Assembly: GCA_017451645.1 (NCBI GenBank)
Contig: JAFTNZ010000012.1
Span: 98,198 to 162,197, forward strand
Direction: 5' to 3'
DNA length: 64,000 nt
From: Bacteroidaceae bacterium
Lineage (GTDB): Bacteria; Bacteroidota; Bacteroidia; Bacteroidales; Bacteroidaceae
In this document: in pieces, positions 28,881 through 53,181 of the stretch
Layout of the letters: each line of letters opens with the position of its first letter
Position numbering within the stretch: position 1 is the stretch's first letter
The notes under the pieces: generated by a model
Seen by the model: the letters and a program-made list of their open reading frames with translations, nothing else
What the model was told of the DNA's origin: nothing
Databases searched by the model: none
Translations under genes and position numbers: made by a program

Positions 28881-28951
28881 AGGCACGGACTACATGAACT
28901 AACGGCCATTCAGAAAAAGAATAAATCCGTGTAATCCGTGTAATCCGTGCT
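28881..28951. repeat. Hairpin of the CACGGATTACACGG family beside the beta-galactosidase gene
   Basis: AGGCACGGACTACAT faces repeated GTAATCCGTG units (28929-28950). The arms pair imperfectly. The element lies 38 bases beyond the 3' end of the GH2 gene and could end its transcript. Confidence 0.55.
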
Positions 28952-39302: not shown

Positions 39303-39306
39303 AATG

Positions 39307-39345
39307 GACTCTCCCCCTTACCCTTCCCAAGGGAGGGGAGTGAAT
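39307..39345 (+). repeat. GC-rich palindromic repeat (family A), forward copy
   Basis: The element reads GACTCTCCCCCTTACC, then TTCCCAAGGGAGGGGAGTGAAT. It starts four bases after the GH97 stop. It is one of 11 copies of family A whose forward form is GACCCTCCCCCTGCCCCTCC followed by GGGAGGGGAGTGAA. Confidence 0.75.
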
Positions 39346-39370
39346 AGAATATTAGTAAATTAAAGACAAT

Positions 39371-39415: not shown

Positions 39416-39432
39416 AGTATAGTAGAACATTC

Positions 39433-39464
39433 TACTCCCCTGGGAGGGGCAGGGGGGAGGGTCC
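39433..39464 (-). repeat. GC-rich palindromic repeat (family A), reverse copy with G-quadruplex motif
   Basis: TACTCCCCTGGGAGGGG then CAGGGGGGAGGGTCC. The mRNA-sense strand at 39442-39461 has four runs of three or more G (GGG, GGGG, GGGGGG, GGG) with loops of one or two bases, ending 14 bases before the ATG at 39476. Confidence 0.7.
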
Positions 39465-39475
39465 TCTCATAGAAA

Positions 39476-47405: not shown

Positions 47406-47752
47406 ACATAGAAGTATTGAAATCGAAAATCCATTGTGCCCGTGTCACTGAGGCTAACCTCAACTACATGGGCAGCATCACCATTGATGAAGATTTGATG
47501 GATGCGGCCAATCTTATAGCCGGAGAAAAAGTGCACATTGTCAACAATAACAACGGTGCCCGTTTCGAAACTTACATTATCAAAGGAGAGCGTGGGAGCG
47601 GATGTGTCTGCCTCAATGGAGCAGCTGCTCGTCTGGTGCAGGTGGGAGATGTGGTCATTATCATGTCGTATGCACAGATGGATTTTGAAGAAGCAAAGGC
47701 TTTCAAGCCTGCCGTCATTTTCCCAGATAGTATGACAAACCGTTTGGTTTGA
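47402..47752 (+). CDS. panD: Aspartate 1-decarboxylase
   Basis: The 116-residue proenzyme makes beta-alanine from aspartate. It cleaves itself between Gly24 and Ser25 (NYMGSITID) to form the pyruvoyl cofactor at the new N-terminus, and [14 protein letters not shown] and [13 protein letters not shown] are typical. It follows panC. Confidence 0.95.
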
Positions 47753-47765
47753 TTATTGGTAATAA

Positions 47766-47852
47766 TTTCAGGCGCTGATTGCGCAGATTACACGGAAGAA
47801 CAATTTTATTTAATACATAAATCCGTGTAATCTGCGCAATCAGCGCCTGAAA
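47766..47852. terminator. Perfect 31-base inverted repeat of the CACGGATTACACGG family
   Basis: The arms 47766-47796 and 47822-47852 are exact complements, containing GGCGCTGATTGCGCAGATTA and CACGGA. It separates panD from the convergent decarboxylase operon and probably ends both transcripts. Confidence 0.75.
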
Positions 47853-47868
47853 TATATATATTCAGTGG

Positions 47869-49029
47869 TTACATCAAGAATCCGAGAAGGATACCGGCGG
47901 CTACAGCCGAACCGATAACACCTGCTACATTGGGCCCCATAGCATGCATGAGCAGGTAGTTGGTCGGGTCGTATTCGAGACCGACGGTTTGGCTGATACG
48001 AGCCGAGTCGGGCACAGCTGACACACCGGCATTACCGATAAGCGGATTGATGCGCTTGTGCTTCGGCAATATCAGGTTGAACAGCTTGACAAACAGTACG
48101 CCAGAAGCAGTTGCGATGACGAACGACAAAGCACCGAGACCGAAGATGAGGATACTGTCAACGGTCAGGAACTCGCTGGCTTGGGTAGAAGCGCCTACAG
48201 TGACACCAAGCAGGATAGTGATAGTGTCAATCAGCGGGCCACGGGCGGTCTCTGCCAAGCGGCGTGTCACACCCGATTCTTTCAGCAAGTTACCGAAGAA
48301 GAGCATGCCCAACAGGGGCAGACCGCTCGGCACCAGGAAGCAGGTGAGAAGCAGGCCGACGATGGGGAAAATCACTTTTTCGGTGTGTGAAACTTTGCGT
48401 GGAGCCGGCATACGCATCAGGCGCTCTTTCTTCGTGGTGAGCAGGCGCATGATGGGGGGTTGGATAACCGGCACAAGAGCCATGTAGGAGTAGGCGCTCA
48501 CGGCAATGGCTCCCATCAGGTTTGGAGCAAGTTTTGATGAAAGGAAAATGGCCGTTGGTCCGTCAGCTCCACCAATAATGCCAATTGCACCGGCTTGTGA
48601 TGGAGTAAAACCGAGTTCAAGTGCAATCATATAAGCACCGAATATTCCAAACTGGGCGGCTGCTCCGATGAGCAACAATTTGGGATTGGAGATAAGTGCA
48701 GAGAAGTCGGTCATGGCACCGATGCCCAAGAAGATGAGCGGCGGATACCAGCCGGAGGTTACACCTTGATAGAGGATGTTGAGGACTGAACCCTCTTCAT
48801 AGATTCCTACTTGCAGACCGGCTTCCGTATTGAACGGAATGTTGCCGATAAGGATACCGAAACCAATAGGGATGAGCAACATCGGCTCAAACTCTTTGGC
48901 TACGGCCAGGTAGATGAAGAACAAACCTACGAGAATCATGATGAGGTGGCCGGTAGTTGCATTGGCAAAACCGGTGTATGTCCAGAAATCCGCGAGGTTG
49001 TTGGTCAGGAATTGGATAAATTCTCCCAT
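47869..49029 (-). CDS. mmdB: Methylmalonyl-CoA decarboxylase beta subunit (sodium-translocating, OadB family)
   Basis: The 386-residue protein has about ten membrane helices. GIIGGADGPTAIFLSSKLAP (about residues 150-170) is the conserved region of OadB/MmdB that carries the sodium-coupling Asp, and the C-terminus NYLLMHAMGPNVAGVIGSAV is typical. It decarboxylates carboxybiotin and pumps Na+ across the inner membrane. It is the last gene of the operon, after the biotin carrier. The gap to that gene is filled by a pair of family A repeats. Confidence 0.92.
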   Translation of the reverse strand: MGEFIQFLTNNLADFWTYTGFANATTGHLIMILVGLFFIYLAVAKEFEPMLLIPIGFGILIGNIPFNTEAGLQVGIYEEGSVLNILYQGVTSGWYPPLIFLGIGAMTDFSALISNPKLLLIGAAAQFGIFGAYMIALELGFTPSQAGAIGIIGGADGPTAIFLSSKLAPNLMGAIAVSAYSYMALVPVIQPPIMRLLTTKKERLMRMPAPRKVSHTEKVIFPIVGLLLTCFLVPSGLPLLGMLFFGNLLKESGVTRRLAETARGPLIDTITILLGVTVGASTQASEFLTVDSILIFGLGALSFVIATASGVLFVKLFNLILPKHKRINPLIGNAGVSAVPDSARISQTVGLEYDPTNYLLMHAMGPNVAGVIGSAVAAGILLGFLM

Positions 49030-49045
49030 AATATATTTCTTTTAC

Positions 49046-49105
49046 GACCCTCCCCCTTACTCCTCGAGACCCTCCCCCTGCCCCTCCACAAGGGAGGGGA
49101 GTAAA
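49046..49105 (+). repeat. GC-rich palindromic repeat (family A), forward copy plus a partial copy
   Basis: GACCCTCCCCCTTACTCC (partial, 49046-49063) is followed by GACCCTCCCCCTGCCCCTCC and AAGGGAGGGGAGT (49068-49102). It starts 17 bases before the mmdB 5' end on the minus strand. Confidence 0.8.
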
Positions 49106-49134
49106 TTGTTCCTATTTATTGTTAGAACTATTTT

Positions 49135-49187
49135 TCACTTCCCTTTTGGGAAGGCGGGGTAGGACCCAAAAGGTTGGGATGGGGTCC
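49135..49187 (-). repeat. GC-rich palindromic repeat (family A), diverged reverse copy
   Basis: CACTTCCCTTTTGGGAAGG, then GGGGTAGGACCC and GGGATGGGGTCC. It is the partner of the forward copy at 49046-49105. Confidence 0.6.
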
Positions 49188-49202
49188 GTGTTCGATTTTA
49201 TT

Positions 49203-49631
49203 TTATTCAATCACTACCAGATCAGTTCCTTCAAGCACAGATTCGCCAGCTTTCACGTTGATGGCTGTAATCTTTCCATCCTTGTCAGCGTTGATGTTGT
49301 TTTCCATCTTCATGGCTTCAAGGATGAGGATGGTCTGACCACGTTTTACGGTGTCGCCTACGTTCACTTTGATGTCGAGGATGACACCGGGGAGCGGACT
49401 CTTTACGGCTGACTTGCCTGTGCTGGCCGCTGCGGGACGAGCTGCCGGAGATGCGGCAGGAGCCGCCGGACGTGCTACGGGGCGTGCCACGGGCTTCGGA
49501 GCCTCTACTTTCTGCTCCATTTCTACCTTATAGGCAGTTCCGTTTACTTCCACATTGGCTATGTTGCCTTCAATCTCTCCGATGGTAACCTTGTATTCGT
49601 TACCGTTGATGGTATATTTATACTCTTTCAT
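49203..49631 (-). CDS. mmdC: Biotin carboxyl carrier subunit of methylmalonyl-CoA decarboxylase
   Basis: The 142-residue protein has a Pro/Ala linker at about residues 44-72 (PKPVARPVARPAAPAA) followed by a biotinyl domain. The biotin-accepting Lys is K108 in LEAMKMENN. It carries CO2 as carboxybiotin from the MmdA subunit to MmdB. Family A repeats flank it on both sides. Confidence 0.93.
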   Translation of the reverse strand: MKEYKYTINGNEYKVTIGEIEGNIANVEVNGTAYKVEMEQKVEAPKPVARPVARPAAPAASPAARPAAASTGKSAVKSPLPGVILDIKVNVGDTVKRGQTILILEAMKMENNINADKDGKITAINVKAGESVLEGTDLVVIE

Positions 49632-49646
49632 GTCTTTTTTTTCTTT

Positions 49647-49688
49647 GGACCCACCCCCTTGCCCCTCCCTGTATGGAGGGGAGTGAAT
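49647..49688 (+). repeat. GC-rich palindromic repeat (family A), forward copy
   Basis: GGACCCACCCCCTTGCCCCT then CCCTGTATGGAGGGGAGTGAAT. It lies 15 bases upstream of the biotin carrier start. Confidence 0.8.
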
Positions 49689-49754
49689 ACTTTGGTGAGT
49701 CGTTTGTTGATTAAATTGTTATTTTATGATTCAAATCGTTTATAGATTCTATCT

Positions 49755-49790
49755 GCTCCCCTCCCTTGTGGAGGGGTAGGGGGAGGGTCT
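49755..49790 (-). repeat. GC-rich palindromic repeat (family A), reverse copy
   Basis: GCTCCCCTCCCTTGTGGAGG then GGTAGGGGGAGGGTCT. It pairs with 49647-49688 and lies 14 bases after the stop of the LTD/OadG gene. Confidence 0.8.
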
Positions 49791-49804
49791 CCTCCCTTCT
49801 TCTA

Positions 49805-50758
49805 CTATTTTCTCAGCATCAAGTGCTTGGCATTCCATGCCGATGTACGGCGGGTGATGGTGAGTACGCCTGACTCGATGTCGTGCACGTTGTTCATCTC
49901 TTCGTGCAGGGCCATGGCGATGGCGGCGTAAACCTCTCCCTCCTTGCTTTCGGCTTTGGCTACGGGTTGGTTTTCTGTCATTGTTTCAGTTTTACTTGTT
50001 TCGGTTGATTTCTTGGATTGCATACCCAAACCGAGCAGACGGAAAAGTACGTAAAGAATAATCAATCCGCTGAACACTACCAACATGGCGGTAATGGCCA
50101 TACCGATACCGGCGGGGTCCTGTTCGGCAAATTTCTCTTGTTTTACGTTCTTCTCTATGGTCATGTTGTTGGTGCTGGGTGTCACGTAGCTGCTGGCTTC
50201 GTCACCCCCTTTCACCACCCATTCGGGATTGGCATCATCTACGCGGGCATACGAATGGTCTGCCTCGAGTACGGGTACTTCAATCTGGTCGATGAGCTTT
50301 CCACCGTTGTCATACAATCCTACCCAATTGATGCGGGCTGTATCAAGTGTGCAAGTGGTGTGGAAAGTACCACGGTTTGGTTCACCGTCGGCCCAGAAGA
50401 GAGCATGTTGGCGAGGCTTGATTTTGGTCAGTACATCACCTTTGGGAACATTGTAGAACACCGTATCGCCCACGCCGTTATAGACGGCCAGTTTGTATCC
50501 GGCAATATCTACCGTACCGTACGATTTGTTGAAAACTTCAATCCATGCATTGTGTACGCCATAGTCGTCCTGAAAGTTTCTTTTATTCAGACTTAACGCT
50601 TCGTTCAGTACCACTTTTGAGGTCTCGTCTTCCTGTTTGTTGCAGGAAGTGAAGCCTGAAAGCAGGATGAGAAGGAGGAGGAAAGACCCTCCCCCTGCCC
50701 CTCCGCAGGGGAGGGGAGTGAATACTCTGCGCATCATTTTATGAATGATATTTCTCAT
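49805..50758 (-). CDS. LTD-domain/OadG-like subunit of methylmalonyl-CoA decarboxylase
   Basis: The 317-residue protein combines a signal-like N-terminus (hydrophobic core FLLLLILLSGFTSC, ending in a lipobox-like Cys at about residue 39), a lamin-tail domain (about 50-185: VVLNEALSLNKRNFQD, WIEVFNKSYGTVDIAGYKL), one membrane helix (about 218-240: GIGMAITAMLVVFSGLIILYVL) and an OadG-like cytoplasmic tail. OadG-type chains hold the decarboxylase complex together. Codons 13 to 25 ([13 protein letters not shown]) are a translated family A repeat placed in frame between the n-region and the hydrophobic core of the signal peptide, and the ATG lies between two repeat copies. The gene lies between mmdA and the biotin carrier. 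Confidence 0.8.
   Translation of the reverse strand: MRNIIHKMMRRVFTPLPCGGAGGGSFLLLLILLSGFTSCNKQEDETSKVVLNEALSLNKRNFQDDYGVHNAWIEVFNKSYGTVDIAGYKLAVYNGVGDTVFYNVPKGDVLTKIKPRQHALFWADGEPNRGTFHTTCTLDTARINWVGLYDNGGKLIDQIEVPVLEADHSYARVDDANPEWVVKGGDEASSYVTPSTNNMTIEKNVKQEKFAEQDPAGIGMAITAMLVVFSGLIILYVLFRLLGLGMQSKKSTETSKTETMTENQPVAKAESKEGEVYAAIAMALHEEMNNVHDIESGVLTITRRTSAWNAKHLMLRK
50684..50723 (+). repeat. Family A palindromic repeat inside a coding sequence
   Basis: AGACCCTCCCCCTGCCCCTC then CGCAGGGGAGGGGAGTGAAT. It lies within the minus-strand LTD/OadG gene, where it is read as [13 protein letters not shown]. Confidence 0.85.
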
Positions 50759-50792
50759 ACTCTAATAGCATTTTATAGTGTGAAGACATTTT

Positions 50793-50828
50793 ACGCCCCT
50801 CCCTTATGGAGAGGTAGGGGGTGGGTCT
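50793..50828 (-). repeat. Family A palindromic repeat, reverse copy
   Basis: ACGCCCCTCCCTTATGGAGA then GGTAGGGGGTGGGTCT. It pairs with 50684-50723 and lies between the LTD/OadG start and the mmdA stop. Confidence 0.8.
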
Positions 50829-50835
50829 TCTTTTT

Positions 50836-52389
50836 TTACAATGGGATATTACCGTGCTTCTTTGCCGGATTGGTCAGTTTCTTTGTCTGCAACTGGGCCA
50901 ATGCGCGGATGATGCGGAAGCGGGTGTTGCGCGGTTCGATGACGTCGTCGATGTAGCCATACTTGGCCGCATTGTACGGGTTGGCGAACAGCTTGGTGTA
51001 TTCGGCTTCCTTCTCAGCCAGGTATTCGGCAGGATTTTCCTTCTCCTTGGCCTCCTTGGCATAGAGAACGGCTACGGCACCCGAGCCACCCATTACGGCA
51101 ATTTCGGCTGAAGGCCAAGCATAGTTGATGTCGCCACGCAACTGCTTGCAACTCATCACGATGTGGCTACCACCGTATGACTTGCGCAGGGTAACGGTCA
51201 CCTTGGGTACGGTGGCTTCGCCGTAAGCGTAGAGCAACTTGGCACCGTGCAGGATGACGGCGTTGTACTCCTGTCCGGTTCCCGGCAAGAAGCCCGGCAC
51301 GTCAACGAGTGACACGATGGGGATGTTGAAAGCATCGCAGAAGCGGACGAAGCGGGCACCCTTGCGTGAGGCGTTGCAATCGAGCACACCGGCGTAGCGG
51401 CAGGGCTGGTTGGCCACGATGCCGACTGACTGGCCGTTGAAGCGGGCAAAACCGATGATGATGTTGGTGGCATAGTCCTTCTGCACTTCGAGGAACTTGC
51501 CGTCGTCAACGATGGCACCGATAACCTCGTACATGTCGTAAGCCTTGTTGGGATTGTCGGGGATGATTTCATTAAGAGAATCTTCCACACGGTCGATGGG
51601 GTCGGTGCACTCTGTGAGCGGAGCCTCCTCCTGGTTGTTTTGGGGGATGTAGCTCAACAATTCACGGATAAGGGCCAATCCCTCTTCCTCCGTTTGTGCG
51701 GTAAAGTGGGTCACACCACTCTTGGTTGAGTGTACGCTGGCACCACCGAGCTGTTCTTGAGTCACGTCTTCACCCGTTACGGTTTTCACTACGGCAGGGC
51801 CGGTGAGGAACATGTAGGATGTACCTTCCATCATCAGCGTGAAGTCGGTCAATGCCGGAGAATATACGGCACCACCGGCGCAAGGGCCGAAGATACCAGA
51901 GATTTGGGGCACCACACCCGAAGCAAGGATATTGCGCTGGAAGATTTCAGCATATCCGGCCAAGGCGTTGATACCCTCCTGGATACGTGCACCACCCGAG
52001 TCGTTGATGCCGATGCAGGGGGCACCCATCTTCATGGCCATATCCATCACCTTGCAAATCTTCTGTGCCATAGTCTCTGACAACGAACCGCCGAACACGG
52101 TGAAGTCTTGTGCAAAGACATATACCAGACGTCCGTCGATGGTTCCCGAACCGGTCACCACGCCATCGCCCAAGAACGATTTCTTCTCTTGTCCGAAGTT
52201 GGTGCAACGATGGGTCACGAACATGTCCATCTCTTCAAAACTGCCCTCGTCGAGCAACATGGCGATGCGCTCACGGGCGGTATATTTTCCTTTCTCATGT
52301 TGTTTGGCAATAGCCTTTTCGCCACCACCCAGACGGGCTTTGGTGCGGAGCTCTACCAATTCTTTGATTCTCTCTAATTGCTTGCTCAT
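50836..52389 (-). CDS. mmdA: Methylmalonyl-CoA decarboxylase alpha subunit (carboxyltransferase)
   Basis: I start at [20 protein letters not shown] (517 residues); the longer frame would translate a family A repeat ([11 protein letters not shown]). [39 protein letters not shown] and the later [10 protein letters not shown] are classic for the carboxyltransferase domain. It moves CO2 from (S)-methylmalonyl-CoA to biotin, forming propionyl-CoA. It lies 200 bases after the epimerase gene on the same strand. The length fits MmdA/PccB. Confidence 0.95.
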
Positions 52390-52400
52390 AAATAAATGGG

Positions 52401-52439
52401 GACCCTTCCCCTTGCCCCTCCACAAGGGAGGGGAGTGAA
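52401..52439 (+). repeat. GC-rich palindromic repeat (family A), forward copy
   Basis: GACCCTTCCCCTTGCCCCTC then CACAAGGGAGGGGAGTGAAA. It starts 11 bases upstream of the mmdA start codon. Confidence 0.8.
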
Positions 52440-52545
52440 AAGTTCTGTCCCTTGTTTTTGTCGTTATTTAACTGATTATTATTTTTTCTCCCGTAGATAG
52501 CGAAAACCTCCCTTTCATATAGTACTGTTTGTAGTTTACAGACTA

Positions 52546-52583
52546 TTCACTCCCCTCCCTTGTGGAGGGGTAGGGGGAGGGTC
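52546..52583 (-). repeat. GC-rich palindromic repeat (family A), reverse copy
   Basis: TTCACTCCCCTCCCTTGTGG then AGGGGTAGGGGGAGGGTC. It ends three bases before the stop codon of the epimerase gene and pairs with 52401-52439. Confidence 0.8.
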
Positions 52584-52586
52584 TCC

Positions 52587-52991
52587 TTATTGTTCACAAA
52601 GTTCAGTCAACACACCTTGAGTTGATTTCGGGTGAAGGAAAGCGATATTCAAACCTTCTGCTCCTCCGCGTGGGGCCTTGTCAATCAGGCGGATGCCCTT
52701 CTCTTCAGCCTCGGCCAATGCGTTGGCCACACCGTCTTCGATGGCGAAAGCCACATGGTGTACGCCGGCACCCTTGTTCTCGATGAACTTGGCAATGGTA
52801 CTCTCGGGGCTTGTCGGCTCCAACAACTCAATCTTCGTGTCACCAACCTTCAGGAAAGCGGTGCGCACCTTCTGGTCTTCCACTGTTTCGATGTTGTAAC
52901 ACTTCAGTCCCAATACGTTCTCGTAGTAGGGGAGGGCCTCTTCAATGCTCTTGACGGCAATGCCCAGATGCTCGATATGAGAAATCTTCAT
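52587..52991 (-). CDS. mce: Methylmalonyl-CoA epimerase
   Basis: The 134-residue VOC-fold protein interconverts (R)- and (S)-methylmalonyl-CoA. H8 (IEHLGIAV) and the HHVAFAIED motif are metal ligands, and the C-terminal GVLTELCEQ supplies the last Glu. It is the first gene of the operon, with a strong promoter 49 bases upstream. The following genes carry out decarboxylation to propionyl-CoA. Confidence 0.93.
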   Translation of the reverse strand: MKISHIEHLGIAVKSIEEALPYYENVLGLKCYNIETVEDQKVRTAFLKVGDTKIELLEPTSPESTIAKFIENKGAGVHHVAFAIEDGVANALAEAEEKGIRLIDKAPRGGAEGLNIAFLHPKSTQGVLTELCEQ

Positions 52992-53039
52992 AACGCGTTT
53001 TTATTTTAGTTGATTATACCTTTATTATATAATATTGCG

Positions 53040-53071
53040 CAAAGTTACTAAGAATGTGTAATACTATCAAA
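53040..53071 (-). promoter_or_regulatory. Bacteroidetes-type promoter of the mce-mmd operon
   Basis: On the minus strand TTTG (53068-53071), a 20-base spacer and TAACTTTG (53040-53047). It is a full match to the consensus, just ahead of mce. Confidence 0.75.
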
Positions 53072-53181
53072 CTTTTCTTGTTTTTATTCCTCAAAAAGCT
53101 CCGATTTGGTATGGAAAATGGCCTTTGATATAGCTTGATAAGCCTAAAAAAGAACCCGTATATGGCAGAATCGTTTTTTCT

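Follow-up and report, generated by a model that had tools for sequence, protein, structure and literature searches.

An inverted repeat pair around the start of an oadG-like gene in a Bacteroidaceae bacterium: relatives of the repeat, some with a DUF559 nuclease gene, seem to capture the opening codons of important genes

Vsr-like nucleases are known among homing nucleases. Proteins of the DUF559 family have been described as Vsr-like PD-(D/E)XK nucleases (PMC12907096). Palindromic repeats, the RPEs, occur in frame in many unrelated Rickettsia genes (PMC3733652; PMC10969869), and intragenic REPs are known in several bacterial groups (PMC3733652). QMITE1 and QMITE2 of Coxiella are miniature elements with inverted repeats from which genes take C-terminal residues and stop codons, and the available part of their description reports none at the 5' end of genes of known function (PMC5896051). 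The MITE BrickBuilt of Porphyromonas gingivalis, a species of the same order as the bacterium studied here, is a miniature inverted-repeat element with IS-like ends (PMC4596501), and the account of Cardinium MITEs, in its available part, names neither DUF559 nor in-frame use (PMC9769881). Among the matches listed from the open-licence literature, taken by titles and the starts of abstracts and with subscription titles mostly outside, we found no description of DUF559 with inverted repeats, or of the repeats reported here, family A, in Bacteroidales.

The window, the whole stretch of DNA that was analysed, comprises 64,000 nucleotides from the 73% complete genome of an uncultured gut bacterium of the Bacteroidaceae. 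An oadG-like gene in it has a family-A repeat pair around its start:

49805..50758, minus strand: oadG-like gene, with a lipoprotein signal peptide and LTD (lamin tail) and OAD_gamma domains
50682..50728, minus strand: right arm of the oadG pair, in frame, within codons 11-26 (nhmmer E 6e-13)
50729..50782, minus strand: spacer between the arms, made up of a non-coding part, the start codon and the n-region
50756..50758, minus strand: ATG start of oadG, between both arms, 12 codons before FTPLP
50783..50830, plus strand: left (inverted) arm of the oadG pair, directly after the mmdA stop (nhmmer E 3.9e-9)
50660..50850, minus strand: stretch folded as RNA, with a predicted long stem of both arms and the ATG in the loop (z -5.66)
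50836..52389, minus strand: decarboxylase alpha subunit upstream of oadG, which we take to be mmdA

The oadG-like protein matches PF00932 and PF04277 above the Pfam cut-off; beyond the Pfam matches quoted, the gene names used for this locus are our assumption. A sequence-only reading had placed a forward arm at 50684-50723, a reverse arm at 50793-50828 and the ATG at 50758, with 13 codons of the repeat in frame between the n-region and the hydrophobic core of the signal peptide. All of this is as it claimed, and the repeat profile agrees on the positions. The arm forms the middle 13 of the first 41 residues, and the lipobox cysteine is codon 39.

The orthologue alignment proposed by that reading bears out the insertion. 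The 13-residue repeat peptide is absent from 77 of 80 named oadG orthologue loci (the best 80 of 153), so that no arm-less orthologue shares these residues, and it is present in three loci of two MAGs, RGIG6310 (twice) and RGIG1657. Ruminant gut Bacteroidaceae MAGs such as these two are the nearest relatives by oadG among the same best 80 of 153. A coarse signal-peptide-plus-cysteine pattern was found in 72 of the 77 arm-less orthologues and a signal peptide was recognised by eye in four more (L151, L159, L173 and L187), L146 being unreadable. Genomes G005, which has two copies of the operon, and G006 also have the arm in frame in oadG. The closest arm-less orthologues with a readable start, those of G011 and G012 (77% identical), begin MKKIHLGILLSLFSFVGLTSC and MKKFHLGILLSILSFVGLTSC, respectively. 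What had been called a rebuilt signal peptide holds as an in-frame insertion of the arm, orthologues without it having a shorter, ordinary signal peptide. Against three orthologous copies the mature part of oadG has a dN/dS of 0.07-0.12 (dN 0.030 and dS 0.41 against the G005 copy L031; dN 0.116 and dS 0.97 against G006), and judged by these ratios the gene is under purifying selection.

The proposal that the repeat had also rebuilt the start site fares differently: it is supported in principle by the leuC-type gene and by 10 of 26 DUF559 loci described below, and for oadG itself the start may be native or element-borne. The first 24 bases of oadG resemble the native starts of G011 and G012 to a degree that 34 and 27 of 250 unrelated gene starts equal, and for the other three captured oadG copies the figure is 11 to 61 of 250. 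Since the n-region matches no better than many unrelated starts, native and element origin are both possible.

The spacer has a history of its own. Its non-coding part is 95% identical to that of G006 and only 50% and 43% identical to those of the two G005 copies, whereas the gene is closer to G005 (90%) than to G006 (80%); because spacer identity runs against gene relatedness, the spacer was replaced or exchanged. In one G005 copy, L032, both arms belong to another repeat subtype, with place and reading frame unchanged. The two G005 operon copies, L031 (contig C71) and L032 (contig C89), are about 93% identical within one MAG, a duplication or mixed strains, and the oadG of G006 (L035, 6162-7220) has 34 extra residues in frame behind residue 243, a stretch without a match to the family-A profile.

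All four gaps of the operon mce-mmdA-oadG-bccp-gcdB have arms at both sides; in the last gap one of the two is a variant form. A further pair lies elsewhere in the window. Apart from the variant, the following are matches of the repeat profile:

52539..52586, plus strand: inverted copy directly after the mce stop
52399..52446, minus strand: repeat copy before the mmdA start
49746..49792, plus strand: inverted copy after the oadG stop
49647..49693, minus strand: repeat copy before the biotin carrier gene
about 49120-49191: variant partner of the gcdB-side copy, missed by the profile
49067..49110, minus strand: repeat copy before the gcdB start
39425..39467, plus strand: inverted partner of the copy at 39305..39350
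39305..39350, minus strand: repeat copy of another pair

The same gaps in relatives hold nothing, family A, or pairs of very different sequence, for example of the ACACAGAGAC, TTGTCAAC and ATTACAC types. At L033, L034 and L035, inverted pairs of the TTGTCAAC, ACACAGAGAC, GACTAATTGG and TTACAATTTAC types occupy the same intergenic places. A dispersed repeat distinct from family A, the CCGTGTAATCTGCGC type, occurs between two convergent genes at 47765-47853 of the window as a perfect inverted repeat of 32 bp around a 25-nt loop, and is also found at 28912-28950 and 61093.

Such pairs might be selected RNA devices, long hairpins that couple translation or stabilise the operon mRNA, with the in-frame cases as by-products. 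The pairs do sit between the stop and start of operon genes, and around oadG the stem, which would hold the ATG in its loop, is predicted to be strong (-69.8 kcal/mol over 191 nt vs -47.5 +/- 3.9 in 200 shuffles). Both members of a pair have the same loop type in 12 of 27 cases vs 5.5 expected, a value reached by 20 of 20000 shuffles (unreadable loops left out), and the switched arms of the G005 copy L032 pair better mutually (-80.5 kcal/mol) than with the arms of the other copies (-49.7 to -59.3 kcal/mol). The other three oadG copies show no preference for their own partner; own arms pair best in one of four oadG copies, in both TolC-type and in both M16 genes, and inconsistently in ABC-F, while the overall similarity of arms within pairs was reached by 5764 of 20000 shuffles of partners. 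Selection as an RNA device sits poorly with close relatives whose gaps lack the pair or hold unrelated families, offers no such role for the mid-gene insertions in LeuRS, ABC-F and an agmatine-deiminase type, and finds no Rfam family at gathering score in 47500-53100. We consider it quite improbable.

Family A is more frequent than chance would give. The source genome has 41 occurrences of its core pattern, 14 on one strand and 27 on the other, and 13 of 61 genomes contain it; the reversed-pattern control gives 0 in each of the 61. The profile finds 112 copies in the window and loci L031-L078; all 38 opposed neighbours within 450 nt have the same order, with outer ends facing genes, and two neighbours are co-directed. 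A sample of 62 copies picked by the pattern comprises 35 intergenic copies, 12 at in-frame gene starts, eight internal and in frame, and seven at gene ends. It covers the window, L046-L058 minus L054 (the same region as L055) and L059-L068, stretches chosen for the strict repeat pattern, with the G006 oadG locus (L035) outside; L069-L074 and L076-L077, mostly picked by a translated-search match, lie outside these counts as well. The open reading frames of the sample are longest open frames, not gene calls: two of the seven gene-end copies lie in doubtful frames (L061 and L065, that of L061 being a TolC-type start on the wrong strand), five of the eight internal copies lie in paralogues of one gene type (L046, L053 and L063), and two of the 12 gene-start copies are mutually orthologous (L055 and L059). 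The three paralogous genes are large, with one or two in-frame repeats each and GPHPGLP-like segments, and that of L046 has a weak DUF3987 match. L054 and L055 show the same G000 region on contigs C29 and C30 in opposite orientation, probably by assembly redundancy.

Starts within the repeat include those of SufC and SufD types, LeuA, a LeuC type (aconitase family), a D-Ala ligase, OEP (TolC type), M16, DPPIV and a YitT protein, and internal copies lie in, for example, LeuRS, DnaG primase and a GH2 enzyme. In-frame use of the repeat is common, and the single capture implied by the sequence-only reading gives way to a recurrent one. Were translation in these genes to begin after the repeat, they would be annotation artefacts and the repeat a plain 5' untranslated element, a status that the authors of PMC3733652, in the part of the paper available, suspect for many amino-terminal REPs. 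SufC, with an ATG directly after the arm, could be such a case. In oadG, however, where the sequence-only reading had turned on translation not starting behind the repeat, there is no in-frame ATG, GTG or TTG between the arm and codon 49, and by our own reading 11 of the 12 amino-terminal copies are followed by no such codon ahead of the hydrophobic core or a conserved domain. In the M16 and TolC-type genes the arms lie inside signal peptides; M16 has no start codon between the arm and the point where the hydrophobic core ends, and the TolC type only a TTG at that very point. An artefact of this kind seems to us most improbable.

Comparison of orthologues shows in-frame insertion in oadG, TolC-type, M16, leuC-type and other genes. 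Repeat-free orthologues exist for M16 (G004) and for the TolC type (G008, G003, G001, G007 and G010). The M16 copy of G005 has an n-region resembling that of the TolC-type genes; a spacer pattern search of 17 genomes returned five places, four TolC-type genes and this M16, and the best non-orthologous spacer match was between the TolC type of G000 and the M16 of G005 (score 18). A shared-spacer total of 102, vs 13-31 in 10 shuffles, includes orthologues and was given no weight. In an agmatine-deiminase type (PAD_porph), G005 and G002 carry family A, the G002 gene with an internal stop; at the same place a TTGTCAAC-type pair lies in frame in G006, and G004, G009, G010, G001 and G008 keep a native loop. 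ABC-F holds different repeat subtypes in G013 and G005 and a collapsed single palindrome in the source genome, is native in G006, G004, G001 and G008, and has an insert at the matching place in a G002 paralogue. Native target codons are often replaced at insertion, as in LeuRS, where 35 codons in the source genome replace the nine residues KEGATPYCD of G006; an AlphaFold model of LeuRS, relevant to the conjecture that inserts occupy surface loops, had a mean pLDDT of 53 and was set aside.

A native start has been lost from the leuC-type gene of the source genome. The residues MKSLFDKIWD, with which the 97% identical gene of G006 still begins, are missing, its first in-frame ATG lies between two arms, its stop also falls within a repeat, and between the arms lies a DUF559 gene of 124 residues. 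DUF559 is present in 21 of the 61 genomes searched; it gave 39 matches, 30 of them with a locus, and 26 loci were analysed after L290, L291, L298 and L299 were dropped as partial. Measured against 2694 control placements, flanking inverted repeats exceed the 99th percentile at 16 of the 26 loci and the 95th at 19, the other 10 not rising above the 99th. At 10 of the 26, a frame that opens with an ATG of the element, placed in the spacer or at the stop of the nuclease gene, runs via the right arm into the next gene: LeuC type in G000, G011, G013 and G034, LeuA in G034, ETF alpha and TsaD in G032, a semialdehyde dehydrogenase (ArgC type) in G005, an MFS gene in G028 and Sua5 in G027, the last (L285) ambiguous in that an ATG also follows shortly after the arm. 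The distance from the ATG to the arm is 12 codons, then FTPL, in oadG; in four of these DUF559 elements it is 11, 11, 12 and 12, then S/F/Y-TPL, and in the other six it differs from oadG.

DUF559 is fused in frame at three more loci, to LeuB (isopropylmalate-dehydrogenase type) in G034 and within LeuRS in G038 and G055. These two genomes, of two families, have it in the same LeuRS loop, in which G006 holds another inverted family, and Pfam names no intein domain in the two DUF559-bearing LeuRS frames. As in a homing element, the same leuC start is occupied in four genomes of two genera. The DF, E-x-DG and RF motifs are conserved in 24 aligned DUF559 copies. At L271 (G058) a DUF559 gene lies between perfect 68-nt inverted repeats of the CCTCACCCCCGGCCCCTCTCCC type. 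The comparison of genomes shows that one leuC has lost its native start, that many DUF559 genes are flanked by inverted arms and that DUF559 lies in frame in LeuRS.

The link between DUF559 and family A is partial. The family-A profile matches the DUF559-flanking arms in G000, G013, G034, G032 and G028; those of G002, G005 and G011 are not family A and have few or no further copies in the loci examined. DUF559 occurs in 10 of the 13 genomes that have the repeat core vs 11 of the 48 that lack it (Fisher p 0.0006, with shared ancestry uncorrected), and within the genus alone the co-occurrence is not significant (6/8 vs 2/7, p 0.10). G012, G014 and G030 bear the repeat without DUF559, G012 and G014 being incomplete, and no DUF559 gene was seen in the window or at any oadG locus. 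Arms that are overall no more alike within pairs than between them, a preference for the own partner in some copies only, and the internal stop of the G002 agmatine-deiminase type gene also weigh against the derivation proposed next.

We think it fairly probable that the oadG pair is a nuclease-less derivative of a mobile element with a DUF559 nuclease, and infer that the DUF559 genes between family-A arms in the five genomes just named are the parent of the pairs. The full element would begin with an inverted arm and the DUF559 nuclease gene; an ATG, placed at the stop of that gene or just behind it, would then lead through some twelve codons into a second inverted arm. It would land at a host gene start or in frame inside a gene, and translation would enter the host gene via the right arm; as the first codons of the host gene are lost, the host could not shed the element cleanly without giving up that start. 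Spread is presumably driven by DUF559, which would cut the target as a homing nuclease does, and pairs that lack it may move in trans or be deletion products. The ATGs of the elements would be the starts used, and that of oadG would have come with its element. That family-A elements are able to bring a start codon is supported in principle by the arrangements aligned here.

An explanation that reverses the roles takes the repeats to be selfish palindromes of the RPE or REP type that some other transposase spreads, with the DUF559 genes as hitch-hikers that happened to insert between their arms. In-frame palindromes and REP dimers inside genes are indeed known for Rickettsia and others (PMC3733652, in its available part), and pairs without DUF559 outnumber DUF559 loci with arms. 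Hitch-hiking does not predict, however, that DUF559 genes in genomes of other families should have different inverted arms of their own, and the Y1 transposase (PF01797) was not found in G000, G002, G006, G011 or G013. Weak Y1 matches occur in G005, G012 and G014, the genomes searched being incomplete; that of G005, where flanking repeats were checked, has none. We hold hitch-hiking to be unlikely, and an origin of the repeats from RAYT in particular is not supported by these incomplete genomes. The weak matches are open frames of 345 to 347 residues (L210 in G005).

More broadly, and tentatively, since we rate it at somewhat less than even, a nuclease-driven origin might define a class of selfish Bacteroidales elements with a Vsr-like nuclease, inverted arms and a start of their own, homing to the starts of genes that are essential or biosynthetic (leuC, leuA, leuB and TsaD) or into LeuRS; replacement of the native start would make the host dependent, and nuclease-less remnants would remodel signal peptides and protein ends genome-wide. 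Relatives of the oadG repeat, some with DUF559, seem to capture the opening codons of important genes, which would bind the host to them. If this is true, a mobile element needs no toxin to resist being lost, since it can turn into the start of a gene that matters. The loci would offer a natural series in which to follow the birth of protein ends and signal peptides, from nuclease present through pair only and collapsed palindrome to empty site, and would suggest a role for DUF559 proteins next to inverted repeats. They are also a warning that start and stop calls in these genomes may fall in repeats.

Family A resembles the RPEs in being inserted in frame in protein genes. It differs from them in belonging to another phylum, in a consensus (61 copies) without the CGTC end, in arms paired around a spacer able to hold a start codon or a nuclease gene, and in taking over the starts and stops of genes. 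With REPs and BIMEs it shares short palindromes in opposed pairs that are mostly intergenic and in part intragenic; the GTAG of REPs, however, is present in some copies only, 3' of the hairpin rather than terminal, with varying bases, and no linked Y1 transposase of the RAYT kind was found near family A (G005 match checked). The 38 opposed pairs have the inverted terminal repeats around a short centre that characterise MITEs. BrickBuilt differs in that the available part of its description names neither DUF559 nor in-frame use (PMC4596501), and QMITEs differ in position, 12 of the 27 in-gene family-A copies of the sample lying at starts. The DUF559 elements are like homing endonucleases in placing a small nuclease gene at one conserved site, the leuC start or the LeuRS loop, in distant genomes; they differ in that their ends are inverted repeats and the host gene would be read from the ATG of the element, and no intron or intein was recognised around them here.
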